DNA of 35,666 nucleotides from Nitratireductor sp. (GTDB taxonomy: Bacteria; Pseudomonadota; Alphaproteobacteria; Rhizobiales; Rhizobiaceae), in contig JAGRLT010000079.1 in the NCBI GenBank assembly GCA_020441665.1, forward strand, positions 1 to 35,666. Reading direction: 5' to 3'. Under the pieces are notes generated by a model that made no database searches, was not told the DNA's origin, and saw only the letters and a list, made by a program, of their open reading frames with translations. This document shows positions 17,438-30,984 of this stretch, one piece after another; positions within the stretch are counted from its first letter, which is position 1, and each line of letters begins with the position of its first letter. Both the position numbers and the translations under genes were made by a program.

Positions 17438-18589
17438 TTAGAACGAGCGGTGTACGCGGAGGGTGTAGCCACCAGCGGCATCGCCATCATTGAATACAGC
17501 GGTAGTGCCGTTCCAAGTAGTAGCGCTGCTTGTGATGGTCTTGAAGTACTCTGCCTGAACATACAGACCAGATACGACATTCCAGCGAACACCAGCCACC
17601 CAACGATCGACGTCAGCCGGGTCGAAAACATCCACGCCGTCAGCGTAGTCATTTTCGCCTTCGTAGCGGGAGAAACCAGCGAACGCGACCAGTTTGTCGG
17701 TCAGGTTGGCCTTCATGGTTACACCCCACTGATGACCATGTACGTAGTCGGTCTTACCATGGTCAGCACGCCACCAGGCACCAATCGAGCCGCCCGGAAG
17801 GAAGCTGGACAGATCGTAGTCAGCACGGATTTTATAGTACACGCCGCCATCATGATCCTCGACAAAAGGCCCTGCGTCATGGCTAACAAAACCATTGCTA
17901 TCATAAATCACGACGGCACCGAGCGACAGGGCGCCCATGGAACCGCTGATGCCGACATACGGATCCGGAGCACCGGAAGCACCCGAATAGACCGACTCCT
18001 GAATACCAACGACGTAGTTCCAGTCGCCGACATTGCCGCCATATTCGAAGAACAGGGCGGTATCGAAGCCATAGCCACCCGAAGCGTTGGCATTGTAGAA
18101 GCCATAACCGGCATAGCGGTTCTGGGCACCACCATTGTCGGCGTCAAAACCCGCACGGAAGCCAGCCAGATTGATGGTGGCTACCCAAAGATCGGCGGTG
18201 TAGTCAAAGGTCTCAGAAGTGGAGAACTCATCATGCACGTCCGTGGTTTCACCAGCCTGCCAGCGAACCGTGATCTGCGAACCCAAGGTACCATATTCGG
18301 TCTCGTTCTGGGCGGTGAAGCCAAGAACGGCGCGAGCATAGGAATCGTGATCCGAAACGGTCGACTCATGATCTTCATCATGGGAGACCGTGTACTGAAC
18401 GCGGACATAACCACCGATTTTCAGGCAGGTTTCCGTGCCCGGGATGTAGAAGAAGCCGGCGCCATACATGTCGCAGACCTTGACGTACTCCATCGGCTCC
18501 GGCTCGACGACGATCGCGTCAGCAGCCTGGGCACCGGAGACGGCTGCCATGACGGCAGCGGAACCAAGAAGAAGGCTCTTGATTTTCAT
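17438..18589 (-). CDS. Outer-membrane porin (alphaproteobacterial Porin_2 type)
   Basis: 383 residues. A signal peptide (MKIKSLLLGSAAVMAAVSGA, cleavage after AQA near 22) leads into VKVCDMYGAGFFYIPGTETC, the conserved start with C39 and C55, then LKIGGYVRVQYT, the first beta strand. Alternating aromatic strands follow, and the chain ends in Phe (LRVHRSF), the usual outer-membrane barrel signature. It forms a general diffusion channel. Loops are rich in Asp and His (VSHDEDHESTVSDHD). The gene is monocistronic: GGAGGT ribosome site, a possible promoter at 18704-18731, and a strong terminator. Codon choice (AAC, ACC, CGC) fits high expression. Confidence 0.92.
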   Translation of the reverse strand: MKIKSLLLGSAAVMAAVSGAQAADAIVVEPEPMEYVKVCDMYGAGFFYIPGTETCLKIGGYVRVQYTVSHDEDHESTVSDHDSYARAVLGFTAQNETEYGTLGSQITVRWQAGETTDVHDEFSTSETFDYTADLWVATINLAGFRAGFDADNGGAQNRYAGYGFYNANASGGYGFDTALFFEYGGNVGDWNYVVGIQESVYSGASGAPDPYVGISGSMGALSLGAVVIYDSNGFVSHDAGPFVEDHDGGVYYKIRADYDLSSFLPGGSIGAWWRADHGKTDYVHGHQWGVTMKANLTDKLVAFAGFSRYEGENDYADGVDVFDPADVDRWVAGVRWNVVSGLYVQAEYFKTITSSATTWNGTTAVFNDGDAAGGYTLRVHRSF

Positions 18590-19027: not shown

Positions 19028-20626
19028 ATGAACCGGGAGATCAGAATCCCTGCCTCTACACCGCAACGGCTGAGCATGCTGCGCCATTTACAAACAGCGG
19101 TGCAGCGCAACCCCGCAAACGCTGCAGCTCACTATGGCATAGCGTTGATCATGCGTGCGGAAAACCATTACGGCGATGCCGAAGAAGCATTAAAAAAAGC
19201 CATAAAATTCAGCAAGAAAGACGAAGACATTCTTCGAGCTCTGGTAGATGTATGCTATCAGCAAGCGCGCTATGCCGAGGCAAAAAAATATGCTCGCAAG
19301 CTAACTGAAATTAATCCGAAAAACCCAAATTATGTATTGCTTCTTGCTGAGGCCAATCGATCGCAAGGAAAAGTAGAACTAGCAATTGAAGCGCTCTCCA
19401 AGGGCATTAAGAATATTCCAAACGAGCCGAAATTATACAGCCGCCTTGCAGATTGCCTCGTTAATGCGGGAAGGGCCGGAGAAACAGATAGTGTATTTAG
19501 AAAGCTCTGGGCCATCGACCCCCACGATGCGGACTCAATTTATAAATACTGCACAAGCCGGAAACTTGACGCGGACGATGCCGAGAATATTCGACTGCGT
19601 ATTGTGGAAGCGCTCGAAAAATCTGACCACGCCCTGCAAAAAACGCAGCTTAATTTCGCGGCGGGTAAGGCTATGCACGATGCCGGCAGACATGATGAGG
19701 CGTTTCAGTTCTATTCCGAGGGGAATCGAAACTCGACAAAGAACTCGAAACCAGATTCGACCTTTGAAATTACAAATGTCCGAGCCGCTGTTTCCGGCAC
19801 ATATCTACAACAGCGGAAAAATTTCGGTGTTGCCGATGCTTCGCCAATTTTCATAGTCGGAATGCCACGCTCCGGCACGACCCTAACGGAAAGCCTTTGC
19901 GGCGCGCACAGCAAGATTTTTCCGGGCGATGAATTGCCTTATTTTCCGGCACTTTTCAAAAGCTTGGGAATGCGTGGCGAACTGCCAAAGGCGTTTGTAT
20001 CCGCTGTGCAGGAGATGACGGAAGAGTTCTCAGTTGAACTCGCTCAGACGTATCTCAGCCGGGTGCGGCCCATAGTGGGTAACGCCGAGTTCTTCACCGA
20101 CAAGTTACCCCATAACTTCGTTCGTGTAGGTCTAATCAAGTTATTGTTCCCAAACGCGAAAATAATCCATTGCCGACGGCATCCACTCGACAATTGCGTA
20201 TCGATCTTTACCAATTCGATGCGAAAGTTTCACAACACCTACAAATCCGATCTCAAGACGCTGGGGCTCTACTATCGGCAGTACTGGCAGTTGATGCAGC
20301 ATTGGCGCGAGATCATGCCGGGTGCGATGCACGAGGTCTATTACGAGGACATGGTGGCCAATACCGAGCTCAATGCGCGCGACCTGATCGCCCATATCGG
20401 TCTCGAATGGGAAGATGGCGTGATGGACCGGCAGAACTCCCAGAAATCGGTCAAGACCCTGTCCGCCTGGCAGGTGCGCCAGCCGGTCTATACCAGTTCC
20501 GCCGGGCGCTGGCGGGTCTATGAAAAGCATCTCGGCCCGCTGATCGACATCCTTGAGCCGATCGTCGAACAGTATGAGGCGGAACTGGCCGCGCTCGAGA
20601 CGCAAAACAGCGGAACCTCTCAATGA
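19028..20626 (+). CDS. TPR-repeat sulfotransferase family protein (mosaic gene)
   Basis: 532 residues from ATG 19028, preferred because GGAG lies 8 nt upstream; an ATG at 18986 is possible. The N-terminal 230 or so residues are tetratricopeptide repeats (AAHYGIALIMRAENHYGDAE, PKLYSRLADCLVNAGRA). The sulfotransferase domain has the PAPS 5'-phosphosulfate loop FIVGMPRSGTTLTES (about 274-288) and the 3'-phosphate motif CRRHPLDNCVS (about 381-391). It should transfer sulfate from PAPS to an unknown acceptor, with the TPRs binding a partner. GC is about 40 percent in sampled lines up to 20160 but 58-72 percent after 20280, so the gene is a mosaic. It overlaps the next gene by ATGA. Confidence 0.85.
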   Translation: MNREIRIPASTPQRLSMLRHLQTAVQRNPANAAAHYGIALIMRAENHYGDAEEALKKAIKFSKKDEDILRALVDVCYQQARYAEAKKYARKLTEINPKNPNYVLLLAEANRSQGKVELAIEALSKGIKNIPNEPKLYSRLADCLVNAGRAGETDSVFRKLWAIDPHDADSIYKYCTSRKLDADDAENIRLRIVEALEKSDHALQKTQLNFAAGKAMHDAGRHDEAFQFYSEGNRNSTKNSKPDSTFEITNVRAAVSGTYLQQRKNFGVADASPIFIVGMPRSGTTLTESLCGAHSKIFPGDELPYFPALFKSLGMRGELPKAFVSAVQEMTEEFSVELAQTYLSRVRPIVGNAEFFTDKLPHNFVRVGLIKLLFPNAKIIHCRRHPLDNCVSIFTNSMRKFHNTYKSDLKTLGLYYRQYWQLMQHWREIMPGAMHEVYYEDMVANTELNARDLIAHIGLEWEDGVMDRQNSQKSVKTLSAWQVRQPVYTSSAGRWRVYEKHLGPLIDILEPIVEQYEAELAALETQNSGTSQ

Positions 20627-22233
20627 TCACCATCAAGCAGGCGCTCGACATGCCGCCCGAAAAGCGGCAGCAGCTTCTCTCGCAGGTGGATACCGCGCTG
20701 CGGGCCAACAAGCGCAATGTGGACGCGCTTTTGAGCGGTGCCTCCCTGCATCATGTGGAGCGGCGCCAGGCCAAAACCGTGGAATTGCTCAAGCAGGCCG
20801 CCGCGCTGCGCCCGAAGGACACGATGATCCTGCAATGGATGTCGGTCGCCGCCGGCGAGATTCGCGATTTCGCCAGTGCCAAATGGTCTTCGAAGAAGCT
20901 TGTCGAGACCGATCCGGGCAATCCCGAAAACTGGCAGATTCGCGGGCGAATCCTGGAAAGCTCGGGCGATTCGGCGGGGGCGCTGAAGGCATTTTCCCGG
21001 CAACTCGAAATGGCGGGCGAGCATGCCGAACTCGTCTTCCAGATCGCCAACTGCAATTTCTATCTCTCCAATCTCGAGGCTGCACTCAAGGGCTATCGCC
21101 GTGCGGTGGAACTCGATCCGACTCATGCGCTGGCGCTGTATGCGATCTCGACGATCCACACTTTCAGCGAAGACGAGGTGCCGCCCTATCTCGAACGGGT
21201 CGAAGCGGCCGTGCCGGCCAACAAGGACAATCCGATCTACAACATCTCGGCGCTCTATTACGGGGCCGGAAAGGCGCTCGACGACATCAGGGCATTCGAC
21301 CGGGCGTTTGATTATTACCGCAAGGCCAATGACGTTCGCCGCCCGCCGGATGTTTCTCGGCTGACGGTGCCGTTTGAAAACTACCAGGCTGCCTTTGATG
21401 TTGATTTTGCAGAAAAATCAAAGGACTGGGGCGACCAGTCGCGCCGGCCGATCTTTATTCTCGGCATGCCGCGGTCGGGCACGACCCTGGTCGAAAGCAT
21501 CCTCGCCGCCCATCCCAAGGTCACCGCCGGCGGCGAAATGCCGGTACTGGAGGATCTCGCCGAACATATCGGCCTGTTTCGCGATTCGCCCGAGGCGTTC
21601 TCCGCCAAGATCAGGGGGCTTACGCGCAAGGACGTGGCGGACATGGCGCGCGCCTATCTCAACGGAGTGCGCACCCTTTGCGGCAAGGACAATCTCTTCA
21701 CCGACAAGCTGCCGCACAATTTCATGCATGTCGGCCTGATTCTCACCCTGTTTCCCAAGGCGCGCATCTTCCATTGCCGCCGCCATCCGCTGGATGTCTG
21801 CTCGTCGATCTACACCAACGGCATGACGCCGGCACACAACTACTACAAATCGGACCTTGAGACCCTCGGCCGGTATTTCTCCGCCTATGACGACCACATG
21901 GCGTTCTGGAACCACCTGTTTCCCGGCCGAATCAGGGAAGTCTTCTACGAGGATCTCATCGCCAATCAGGAACTCAACAGCCGGGCGATGATCGACCATG
22001 TCGGTCTGCCCTGGGACGACCGCGTGATGACCCGCGATAATCCCGACGGCGTGGTCAAGACCCTGTCGGCCTGGCAGGTGCGCCAGCCGGTCTATGCGAG
22101 CGCGATGGGCAAATGGAAGCGCTATGAAAACCATCTTGGCCCGCTGATCGAAGCATTGGGCGACAAGGTGGCTACCTATGAAACTGCGCTGGAGGCCATC
22201 GGCAAGGATGCGCCGACAATGGAGGCGGGATGA
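20623..22233 (+). CDS. TPR-repeat sulfotransferase family protein (second copy)
   Basis: 536 residues. TPR-like helices fill the first 260 residues (HALALYAISTIHTFSEDEVP, GAGKALDDIRAFDRAFDYYR). The PAPS loop FILGMPRSGTTLVES is at about 278-292 and the 3'-phosphate motif HCRRHPLDVCSSIYTNGM at about 383-400. It is a paralogue of the preceding gene: TDKLPHNF, KTLSAWQVRQPVY and YE-HLGPLI are shared, and a 41-nt stretch (22055-22095) differs from 20451-20491 at one base. GC is host-like throughout. ATGA overlaps on both sides couple it to its neighbours. The sulfate acceptor is unknown; TPR-sulfotransferases of this type may modify surface polysaccharide or protein. Confidence 0.87.
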   Translation: MITIKQALDMPPEKRQQLLSQVDTALRANKRNVDALLSGASLHHVERRQAKTVELLKQAAALRPKDTMILQWMSVAAGEIRDFASAKWSSKKLVETDPGNPENWQIRGRILESSGDSAGALKAFSRQLEMAGEHAELVFQIANCNFYLSNLEAALKGYRRAVELDPTHALALYAISTIHTFSEDEVPPYLERVEAAVPANKDNPIYNISALYYGAGKALDDIRAFDRAFDYYRKANDVRRPPDVSRLTVPFENYQAAFDVDFAEKSKDWGDQSRRPIFILGMPRSGTTLVESILAAHPKVTAGGEMPVLEDLAEHIGLFRDSPEAFSAKIRGLTRKDVADMARAYLNGVRTLCGKDNLFTDKLPHNFMHVGLILTLFPKARIFHCRRHPLDVCSSIYTNGMTPAHNYYKSDLETLGRYFSAYDDHMAFWNHLFPGRIREVFYEDLIANQELNSRAMIDHVGLPWDDRVMTRDNPDGVVKTLSAWQVRQPVYASAMGKWKRYENHLGPLIEALGDKVATYETALEAIGKDAPTMEAG

Positions 22234-23255
22234 TGGATCGATTCGGCGGCCAGGATCCGCAACCCTGCTCCATGCCCAATCGCCGTGCCGTGCTGGCAAT
22301 GGCGGGAGCGGCCGGGCTCCTGTTTCCCGCCGCGGCATTCGGCCAGACCGGCGAGATCAAGCAGGAAGCGGTTTCGGGCTACACATTCGACAATGAATAT
22401 CCGGCCTGGCCCTCGGGCACGGGTCCGAGGATCGGCCTGCACCGATTTGTCAGCCCCCATGTGCAGCGTGGCTCGATGGAGCCCTTTGCAACGCTCGCTC
22501 AGACCGACGGCTTCCGGTTCGAGTGGATCGATCACGCCCTGTCGGCGGAAACGCTCAAGGCGCTGGACATTTTCATGGTGGTCAACCCCTATCTCAAGGG
22601 CGGCGCGCTCGACTACCGCAACTTCGCCACGCCGGACGCGCCAAGCGTCTATTCGCCCGAGGAAATCGCCATGATCCGGCAATGGGTCGCGGCGGGCGGA
22701 TCGCTGCTGGTGCTTGCGGACCACTCGCCCTTCGCCGGCGGCGCGATCAAGCTGCTCGACGCCTTCGGCTATACCTCGATGACCGGCACGACCATCCACG
22801 AGAGCTCGACCCTGCGGGCCGTGAAGTCAGATATCGGCTTCGCGAAGCAGGGCACGGGCCTGCAGACGGGGCGTCTTGCCAGCCACCCGATCACCGACGG
22901 AGCGCTGGGCCGGCGCCCGATCGACCATTTCCGCACCTTCACCGGCCAGGCGCTGATACCGCCTGCGACGGCACAGAACCTGCTGACCATCCCGGCCGGT
23001 TATCAGACGGTACTTACCTATAAACTGTTCGAGGAGTTCGATACCGCACCGCGGATCGATGCCTCCGGCCTCTCCCAGGGGGCTGTCGAGGAGGTCGGCA
23101 AGGGCCGTATCGGCATCTTCGGCGAGACCGGTGGATTTACCGCCCAGGTCATCACCAATACCGAGCCGTTCGGCCTTACCGACCCGCAAGCCGACCAGAA
23201 CGCTGATTTCGTTCTCTCGGTGCTGCGCTGGCTGGTGCACTACCAGCCGAACTAG
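22230..23255 (+). CDS. Exported GATase-like (DUF4350-type) protein
   Basis: 341 residues; the ATG at 22230 overlaps the upstream stop (ATGATGG) with GGAGG just before it. A twin-arginine-like signal, NRRAVLAMAGAAGLLFPAAA with likely cleavage after AFG or AFGQ near 37-39, points to export, possibly by Tat. The mature part has the pattern of a class-I glutamine-amidotransferase-like fold used as a binding module: LKALDIFMVVNPYLKGG, then SPEEIAMIRQWVAAGGSLLV with LADHSPFAGGA. I see no catalytic Cys at the usual elbow, so glutaminase activity is unlikely. Coupling to the sulfotransferases suggests a role in handling the same exported product. Confidence 0.65.
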   Translation: MMDRFGGQDPQPCSMPNRRAVLAMAGAAGLLFPAAAFGQTGEIKQEAVSGYTFDNEYPAWPSGTGPRIGLHRFVSPHVQRGSMEPFATLAQTDGFRFEWIDHALSAETLKALDIFMVVNPYLKGGALDYRNFATPDAPSVYSPEEIAMIRQWVAAGGSLLVLADHSPFAGGAIKLLDAFGYTSMTGTTIHESSTLRAVKSDIGFAKQGTGLQTGRLASHPITDGALGRRPIDHFRTFTGQALIPPATAQNLLTIPAGYQTVLTYKLFEEFDTAPRIDASGLSQGAVEEVGKGRIGIFGETGGFTAQVITNTEPFGLTDPQADQNADFVLSVLRWLVHYQPN

Positions 23256-28548: not shown

Positions 28549-28997
28549 TCTGGCGCACCCTGCTTGAATGGCGCCATGCCGAGGCGGGCGAGTTCGTCCG
28601 CCTTTTCGTTTTCCGGAACGCCGGCATGGCCCTTGACCCAGTGCCAGTGCACATCGTGGCGCTGGCGCGCCGCGTCAAGGCGCTGCCACAGCTCGGCATT
28701 CTTGACCGGCTTTTTGGCGGCGGTCTTCCAGCCATTCTTCTTCCAGCCGTGGAGCCATTCGGTGATGCCGCCGCGCACATATTGCGAATCGGTGTGCAAA
28801 TGCACCGTGCAGGGGCGTTTCAGCGCTTCCAGAGCCTCGATCGCGGCGGTCAGTTCCATGCGGTTGTTGGTGGTTTGCGCCGCGCCGCCATGGAGTTCCT
28901 TTTCCCGGTCGCCATAGCGCAGCAGGACCCCCCAGCCGCCGGGGCCGGGATTGCCCGAACAGGCACCATCCGTCCAGATATCGACTTGGCCGGCCAC
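28539..28997 (-). CDS. rnhA: Ribonuclease HI
   Basis: 152 residues from a GTG (28995-28997) that shares one base with the thrB stop. The active-site acids are D10 ([16 protein letters not shown]), E48 ([16 protein letters not shown]), D70 ([15 protein letters not shown]) and the late Asp in [16 protein letters not shown]. It cleaves the RNA strand of RNA-DNA hybrids (R-loops, primers). Full length for the family, with the basic handle [15 protein letters not shown]. It is the last gene of the long cox-derived minus-strand run, a rhizobial ispH-thrB-rnhA arrangement. Confidence 0.96.
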
Positions 28998-29962
28998 TAC
29001 GCCTCCAGCCCGTAAAGCGAGGACCGGGCGATGCCCTGATGGAATTTGAGCTTGGCGATGTATTCGGCCGGGTTCTTGGGCGTCACCAGCGCGCCGGGCG
29101 GCACGTTGAGCCAGTCATAGAGCCGCGTCAGCAGGAAGCGCAGCGCCGAACCCCGGCAGAGCATGGGCAGGGCATCGAGCTCGCCTTTCTCCAGCGGACG
29201 GGCGCCGGCATAGCCGCGGGTCAGCGCCCGCGCCTTGGTGGTGTTGAAGTGATGGTTGGTCTCGAAACACCAGGCATTGATGCAGGTCGCAAGATCGTAG
29301 GCGAGAAGATCGTTGCAGGCGAAATAGAAGTCGATCAGGCCCGAAAGCTCGCCCTTGAGGAAGAACACATTGTCGGTGAACAGATCGGCATGAATGACGC
29401 CCGAGGGCAGATCGCGGGTCCAGTTCTTCTCCAGATAGTCGAGCTCTGCCTCGATCATCGCTGCAAGGCCCGGCTGCACCGTATCGGCGCGCGCTTTCGA
29501 CCTTTCGAACAGCGGCCGCCAATCCTCCAAGGTCAGACCGTTGCGGCGGGTCAGGGCGAACCCCTCGCCGGCCAGATGCATCCTGGCCAGCGCCTCGCCG
29601 ACCTGGCTGCAATGGTCGGGCTGCGGCCGCCTGACCTCGAAGCCGTCGAGAAAGCTGATGATCGCCGCCGGCCGGCCGGCAAGCGTTCCCAGGGTTGCGC
29701 CGTCGCGCATGGGGATCGGCAGCGGGCAGTTGATGCCGTGACGGGACAGATGCTCCATCAGGCCGATGAAGAATGGCAGGTCGGCGGGATCGACGCGTTT
29801 TTCGTAGAGCGTCAGGATGTAGGTTCCGGCATCGGTGGTCAGCAGGTAGTTGGAATTCTCCACGCCGCCGGCAATACCCTTGAGCGCATGCAGTTCGCCG
29901 ATGTCGTAGCGGGCAAGATGCGCCGTGATCTGTTCGTCGGTGACTTCGGTATAGACGGCCAC
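28997..29962 (-). CDS. thrB: Homoserine kinase (ThrB, APH-fold type)
   Basis: 321 residues from a GTG at 29960-29962 with GGAG upstream; the open frame continues into ispH only as a shadow. This is the alphaproteobacterial, aminoglycoside-phosphotransferase-like homoserine kinase rather than the GHMP type. Catalytic residues are D193 and N198 in [13 protein letters not shown] and D211 in [11 protein letters not shown]; the Gly-rich loop is [13 protein letters not shown]. It phosphorylates homoserine for threonine synthesis. It lies 2 nt after the ispH stop and abuts rnhA. Confidence 0.94.
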
Positions 29963-29964
29963 CG

Positions 29965-30984
29965 CTACTCTCCGTTCACGAACGCCATGTCGCCGGCCGA
30001 CAGATCGATGTCGCGCAGGTCGCGGGCGACGGGAAATTCCTCGTCCTCGCGCACCGTCTCGGCAAGTTCCACCGTGGTGGGGCGCTTCTGCCTGAAGGCT
30101 TCGATAATGGCATTGACGAGAATCTCTGGAGCGGAAGCGCCGGCGGAAAGGCCGACGATGCGGGCCTGCGCCAACTCGTCCCACGGGATGTCCTGAACGC
30201 CCTGGACCAGCTTGGCGCGCCTGGCGCCTGCCCGCTTGGCAACCTCGACGAGCCGCATCGAGTTCGATGAATTGGGCGCGCCGACGATCAGGAAATGATC
30301 GGCATCCCGTGCGGCGAGCTTCACCACTTCCTGGCGGTTGGTGGTGGCATAACAGATCGATTCGGCGGCCGGATCGGCAAGGGCGGGAAAGCGCTCGCGC
30401 AGTTTTTCGAGGATCGCCGCCGTGTCGTCCACCGAGAGCGTCGTCTGGGTGACATAGCCGAGCATTTCGGGATCGGCGGGGACGTAGTTTGCCGCCTGCT
30501 CGACGGATTCGATCAGCGACATGTCGCCGTCGGTGACCTGTCCCATCGTGCCGATCACCTCGGGATGGCCGGCATGGCCGATCAGCAGCACATGGCGGCC
30601 ATGCTTGAGGTGCCTGAGCGCCTGCTTGTGCACCTTGGAGACCAGCGGACAGGTGGCATCGAGATAGAAGAGATTGCGGGCGGAAGCATCCGCCGGCACG
30701 GATCGGGGAACGCCATGGGCCGAAAAGATCACCGGCTGGCCGGTCGGCGGGATCTGGTCGAGTTCCTTGACGAAGACCGCGCCCTTGGCTTCCAGCCCCT
30801 CGACCACATACCGGTTGTGCACGATTTCGTGGCGGACATAGACCGGCGCGCCGTATTTCTTCAGCGCCAGCACGACCATCTGGATGGCGCGATCGACCCC
30901 GGCGCAGAAGCCGCGCGGGCCGCACAGCCGCAGGGTCAGCGGCTGCGTCGCCGGTTCCGTCCTATCTGCCATGGTGCCACGCAT
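29965..30984 (-). CDS. ispH: 4-hydroxy-3-methylbut-2-enyl diphosphate reductase
   Basis: 339 residues from ATG 30984; an ATG four codons later (30972) is equally possible, as neither has a strong ribosome site. The three cysteine ligands of the Fe-S cluster are C27 in [13 protein letters not shown] and those in [12 protein letters not shown] and [10 protein letters not shown]. Substrate-binding histidines lie in SAHGVPRSV and IGHAGHPEV. It makes IPP and DMAPP, the last step of the MEP isoprenoid pathway. Isoprenoids feed the farnesyl chain of haem O made by the nearby ctaB, so the linkage to the oxidase genes may be more than accidental. Confidence 0.96.

Follow-up and report, generated by a model that had tools for sequence, protein, structure and literature searches.

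The window analysed here is the whole 35,666 nt stretch of a Nitratireductor sp. contig, and it carries a tandem pair of sulfotransferase genes on the forward strand. Gene A (19028..20626, +) encodes a protein of 532 amino acids with N-terminal TPR repeats (TPR_19 and others) and a Sulfotransfer_3 domain (PF13469) at residues 273–463 that scored 164.2 bits against a curated cut-off of 27 in Pfam. An SD-like GGAG is found upstream of the ATG at 19028. Gene B (20623..22233, +), a TPR sulfotransferase of 536 amino acids with the same domain layout, overlaps gene A by an ATGA, and a second ATGA joins gene B to a DUF4350-like gene (22230..23255, +), named from a Pfam match under the curated cut-off. 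On the other side of gene A lies a divergent porin (Porin_2; 17438..18589, − strand) with a third-position G+C content (GC3) of 0.63. The PRSGTT sequence of gene A, which we take from its motif name to be the P-loop, is invariant across an alignment of 14 sequences; the 3'-phosphate-binding helix is presumed, also from its motif, to lie in the same front part of the protein. As expected of its relatives, the product of gene A should perform PAPS-dependent sulfate transfer, an activity that is predicted.

The order of gene A, gene B and the DUF4350-like gene is common to three congeners (G124, G125 and G121), in which abhydrolase and o16396 genes are found on the far side of A and a porin is found beyond the DUF4350-like gene. 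In the window, the porin is divergent from A, and the same is true of genome G039. Since the gene order and the neighbours are kept among congeners, the sulfotransferase locus looks old and resident, and gene A is an ordinary TPR-sulfotransferase that stands first in a conserved unit. In G288 (L143) and G332 (L144), an A-like tail is located directly ahead of the DUF4350-like gene, and no B gene intervenes. The A gene of G121 (L073, 3783–5356) is broken into two frames near residue 80, by a frameshift or an assembly error. As far as the text available from a literature search extends, no paper appears to describe this locus.

The base composition of gene A changes abruptly within the coding frame. 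Codons 1–400 (19028..20227), which include the TPR repeats, the P-loop and the 3'-phosphate-binding helix, have a GC3 of 0.51, and codons 401–532 (20228..20626) form a host-like tail, A-type by sequence, with a GC3 of 0.79 (p = 1.5e-8). A single break fits best at codon 401/402 (nt ~20228), with a likelihood ratio (LR) of 34.5 and a support interval of codons 327–412 (nt 20006–20261). None of 20,000 shuffles reached this value (maximum 23.7), and no second break is evident within the front (LR 5.3). At four-fold sites, G+C was counted at 63/120 positions before the break and 32/35 after it (0.53 to 0.91, Fisher p = 2e-5). The composition break in gene A is real and strong. An earlier note on this DNA had proposed the shift from the G+C counts of six 60-nt lines (23, 24, 25, 30, 35 and 43), every one of which is exact; that the shift lies inside gene A and that the frame is uninterrupted across it were also borne out, the former well above chance and the latter by a reading frame that is open throughout. 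Conservation of the tail as a sufficient cause of its high GC3 was considered and rejected because conserved columns of the front are AT-ended too. The shift is present at variable columns (168/342 third positions in the front vs 64/86 in the tail, p = 2e-5) and conserved columns (28/49 vs 30/36, p = 0.018) alike, and thus does not simply reflect tail conservation.

The break was ranked against 177 ORFs of at least 200 amino acids from the window and 20 stretches of its own genome, a set that was selected by length and may include some wrong frames. Four ORFs have a larger LR. In these, the break occurs ahead of the Pfam domain or in its first ten residues, and for this reason they look like in-frame upstream extensions. 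Gene A is the sole member of the top five with a break well inside a domain; weaker interior breaks occur elsewhere, such as one with an LR of 27.2 in an ORF to which Pfam assigns no domain. The window ORF at 28997–30925, which contains an APH domain (residues 348–578), begins with a long low-GC3 extension that stays in frame, and its true start is probably far downstream.

An AlphaFold model of the gene A protein, calculated with 14 sequences (mean pLDDT = 86.3, pTM = 0.81), places the helices of the TPR part at residues 11–236 and the sulfotransferase fold from residue 273. Codon 401 corresponds to a loop and short helix between the helices at 386–394 and 409–429. According to the model, the break divides the catalytic sulfotransferase fold and does not fall at the border between the TPR and catalytic parts. 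A break inside this fold argues against a swap of a whole TPR or PAPS module, and the exchange of the TPR and PAPS-loop half put forward in the earlier note is not upheld. Foldseek matches of the model include TPST1/2, with 5wrj at a TMt of 0.73 and 8w5z at 0.61. The TPST1/TPST2 tyrosylprotein sulfotransferases resemble gene A in fold and in a sequence match over residues 249–470 (E = 3.9e-9), but gene A differs in its ~20% identity, its TPR front and its bacterial origin.

The relatives of the front and the tail were compared separately. Against 394 family genomes, 57 of which had a match at E 1e-20, the best long matches to the 400-residue front were 38–40% identical: 38% for the A genes of G125 and G124 and 40% for that of G121, followed by S_G039 at 36% and S_G053 at 35%. 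The TPR part is especially diverged, with an identity of 26–29% to the nearest A-type genes and a long tip branch of 1.1. A clade that unites gene A with S_G039 and the A genes of the three congeners was supported at 98/99 in the front and weakly in the tail (58/82); S_G039 is the sister of A in both trees (90/82 front, 89/69 tail), and the best topologies do not conflict. On its own, the mid part of A is poorly placed and the A clade is unrejected (p = 0.447). Grouping A with S_G053 was rejected in the front (p = 8e-5). In the tail, grouping A with S_G053, S_G288 and G332 was unrejected (p = 0.105); the tail may thus have had a different history. By identity, the nearest relative passes from the congener A genes at residues 281–380 to S_G039/S_G053 at 481–525 and, less clearly, at 401–460. 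From these comparisons, the front is of A-type and so, less firmly, is the tail. The earlier note had reasoned that a common set of closest relatives for the two halves would speak against its reading, and the nearest-relative set is identical; its view of a front of distinct origin stands for the foreign composition but not for the ancestry. With the same nearest relatives for front and tail, no distant module was brought in.

The tip branch of the A tail, at 0.099, falls short of the 0.43 expected from the front, and 0/100 simulations were as short, given one fixed topology of 14 genes and a strict null from which S_G269 departs too (front/tail tip ratio of 6.8, compared to 9.0 for A). In the pairs compared, identity climbs at about residue 361, so part of this rate contrast is family-wide.

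The search for a front donor was extended to 297 order genomes and 385 class genomes with the best few candidates per genome scored; in these, no genome except that of the window passed E 1e-50 for the front. Plasmids and phages were searched with the whole protein as the query and gave one phage match, 30% identical over residues 338–498. A distant front donor was rejected as none closer than the genus was found in the order, class, plasmid and phage searches. A contig-end partial gene of G288 is 47% identical to the front over residues 299–400.

The tail of A has identities of 0.72 to S_G039, 0.71 to S_G053 and a G332 contig (also L067), 0.65–0.67 to the A genes of G124, G125 and G121, 0.62 to the B gene of G121 and 0.54 to the window's own B. 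When the tail was used as the query against the 394 family genomes, 58 of which had a match at E 1e-8, own B came sixteenth by E-value, after its counterparts in G121, G125 and G124. At tail sites with the same residue, window A and B have identical codons at 35/62 (0.56), within the 0.43–0.58 obtained for window A against the A and B genes of the three congeners, so silent identity is at background. In AU tests, a clade of A and B was rejected for every part of the gene, with p = 0.008 for the tail, 5e-5 for the front and 0.037 for the mid part. Placing A with all four B genes was rejected in the front (p = 0.0016) and unrejected in the tail (p = 0.080) and mid part (p = 0.077). A tail shared with the paralogue by recent origin, as first suggested, is contradicted by the 54% identity to own B vs 65–72% to A-type genes and by the rejected A and B clade.

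The 40 of 41 bases that the earlier note counted in common between 20451..20491 (+) of A and 22055..22095 (+) of B are exact, and encode the conserved motif VKTLSAWQVRQPVY, which is itself exact in 7/8 A and B genes. Window A and B share 13/14 of its codons, where host codon usage predicts 6.8 (p = 2.4e-4, for a stretch that was singled out), and window A shares 10/14 with the A gene of G124. Over codons 475–489, the A-B identity is 0.93 in the window vs 0.78–0.82 in the G124, G125 and G121 pairs. Based on these values, conversion may have affected a very short tract, of about 41 bases. They would also suit a resident tail converted in its entirety by neighbouring B, but this is refuted by identity, silent-site identity and the AU test of the A and B clade, and is highly improbable even with the unrejected grouping of all four B genes. 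A tail closer to the neighbour than to orthologues, the mark of conversion between tandem paralogues, is not observed in A.

Milder shifts in GC3 from front to tail were found in other homologues: 0.36 to 0.46 in S_G039 (p = 0.045), 0.44 to 0.59 in S_G212 (L146, p = 0.004), 0.69 to 0.77 in the A gene of G124 (p = 0.10), 0.67 to 0.71 in that of G125 and 0.69 to 0.73 in that of G121, with no significant shift in these last three. The four B genes show no step at GC3, though that of G121 shifts from 0.70 to 0.90 at four-fold sites (p = 0.024). Without correction, p < 0.05 was obtained for 3/15 genes at GC3 and 2/15 at four-fold sites. A composition shift running along related strains, which the earlier note would have taken as counting against it, is weakly present: mild in S_G039 and S_G212 and significant in none of the A genes of G124, G125 and G121.

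The pooled GC of sampled stretches under one genus code is 0.41 in G122, 0.47 in G039, 0.60 in G124 and 0.64 in the window's own genome, G000 (0.638, N's excluded). From the congener values, low-GC donors exist in the genus. In terms of codon usage, the front of A scored −1.64 (TPR) and −1.72 (mid) bits per codon under G039 usage and −1.95 and −1.83 under own usage; the tail scored −1.19 under own usage and equally well under that of G053. Only 1/69 own-genome genes scored as low as A over the first 400 codons.

Porins are GC-poor relative to the sampled genes of their own genome in G000, G039 (GC3 of 0.36 and 0.39 vs 0.45) and G124 (0.67 and 0.67 vs a median of 0.71), which probably reflects the codon usage of this gene itself. 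Import of the porin and the front of A as one low-GC block is not favoured since the G124 and G039 porins are GC-poor too. The window porin is 57–62% identical to the G124 and G121 porins and 42% to the full-length porin of G039; the partial porin beside A of G039 is 82% identical to it over residues 1–73 and 40% over residues 83–224.

Most likely, the break arose when A-type alleles that differ in GC underwent homologous recombination in frame, an explanation to which we assign a probability of roughly 0.55. Of the two orthologues involved, a lower-GC relative in the A-type group would have supplied the front, to about codon 401, and a host-like A allele the tail; both the cause and this direction are what we infer. 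Of the earlier reading, the in-frame joining of a part of foreign composition to a host-like part remains the best account, with a tail that is of A-type and not the paralogue's. The sharp single change point, present at variable and conserved columns, speaks for recombination, as do the better fit of the front to G039 codon usage and of the tail to own usage, the low-GC congeners, the placement of both parts next to S_G039, the short tail tip of A and the tail grouping with S_G053, S_G288 and G332 that was unrejected. Against it are the mild shifts of the same sign in S_G039 and S_G212, the four-fold-site shift in the B gene of G121, the lack of a front donor, the agreement of front and tail topologies, the partly family-wide front/tail rate contrast and the tip ratio of S_G269. 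Several of these points would suit a gene A that was inherited whole, its front having drifted to or kept AT-rich codon usage and its slow tail not. Both halves have the same relatives, GC3 is lower in the front in 5/5 A-clade genes (clear only in window A and marginal in S_G039), and the A fronts of G124, G125, G121 and G039 are ~2–10 GC points under the 500-base bins beside them or under the sampled genome. Drift is a credible but unlikely explanation, as the shift at four-fold sites exceeds that of all 14 other homologues tested, the sharpness of the break stands out in its own genome, and conserved front columns are AT-ended too.

Rather less probable is a draft assembly that joined the A front of one strain to the A tail of another. 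The genome is fragmented (173 contigs, 93.65% complete, 2.16% contamination) and A-type genes are fairly well conserved around the join; however, the genes flanking A on both sides have their counterparts at this locus in G124, G125 and G121, the frame is kept, and a protein search of the genome found A and B only. All of these results are still compatible with a join between strains. Replacement of the TPR and PAPS-loop half by that of a distant sulfotransferase, with a change of acceptor, is hardly credible: the divergence and long tip branch of the TPR part would agree with it, but the front falls among A-type genes with support of 98/99, the break is away from the domain border and the order, class, plasmid and phage searches gave no distant donor. 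The changed acceptor specificity suggested in the earlier note is not supported for gene A. It is also very doubtful that A-type genes across the genus repeatedly trade fronts while keeping a slow, conserved tail, and in this way diversify the sulfated surface; the pattern elsewhere amounts to long front and short tail branches in S_G269 (less so in S_G039) and to the mild GC3 steps of S_G039 and S_G212.

With a TPR front and a Sulfotransfer_3 domain, gene A resembles the known TPR-containing sulfotransferases (8/12 plasmid relatives listed are annotated as 'tetratricopeptide repeat-containing sulfotransferase family protein') and differs from them only in its composition break. Mosaic genes formed by intragenic recombination, such as the aph(3')-IIa homologues (PMC4437187), arise by a known process in which parts with different histories are joined in frame. 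Gene A shows the abrupt composition change inside a coding frame that marks such genes, and differs in having no identifiable donor among the sampled genomes and in its weak tree signal. The break does not point to a new mechanism or a new enzyme function, and is ordinary in kind. If recombination is the correct reading, gene A would be one more case of exchange between congeners in which the exchanged unit stops within a catalytic domain; in this genus, the GC range of 0.41 to 0.64 among sampled members makes such joins easy to see.
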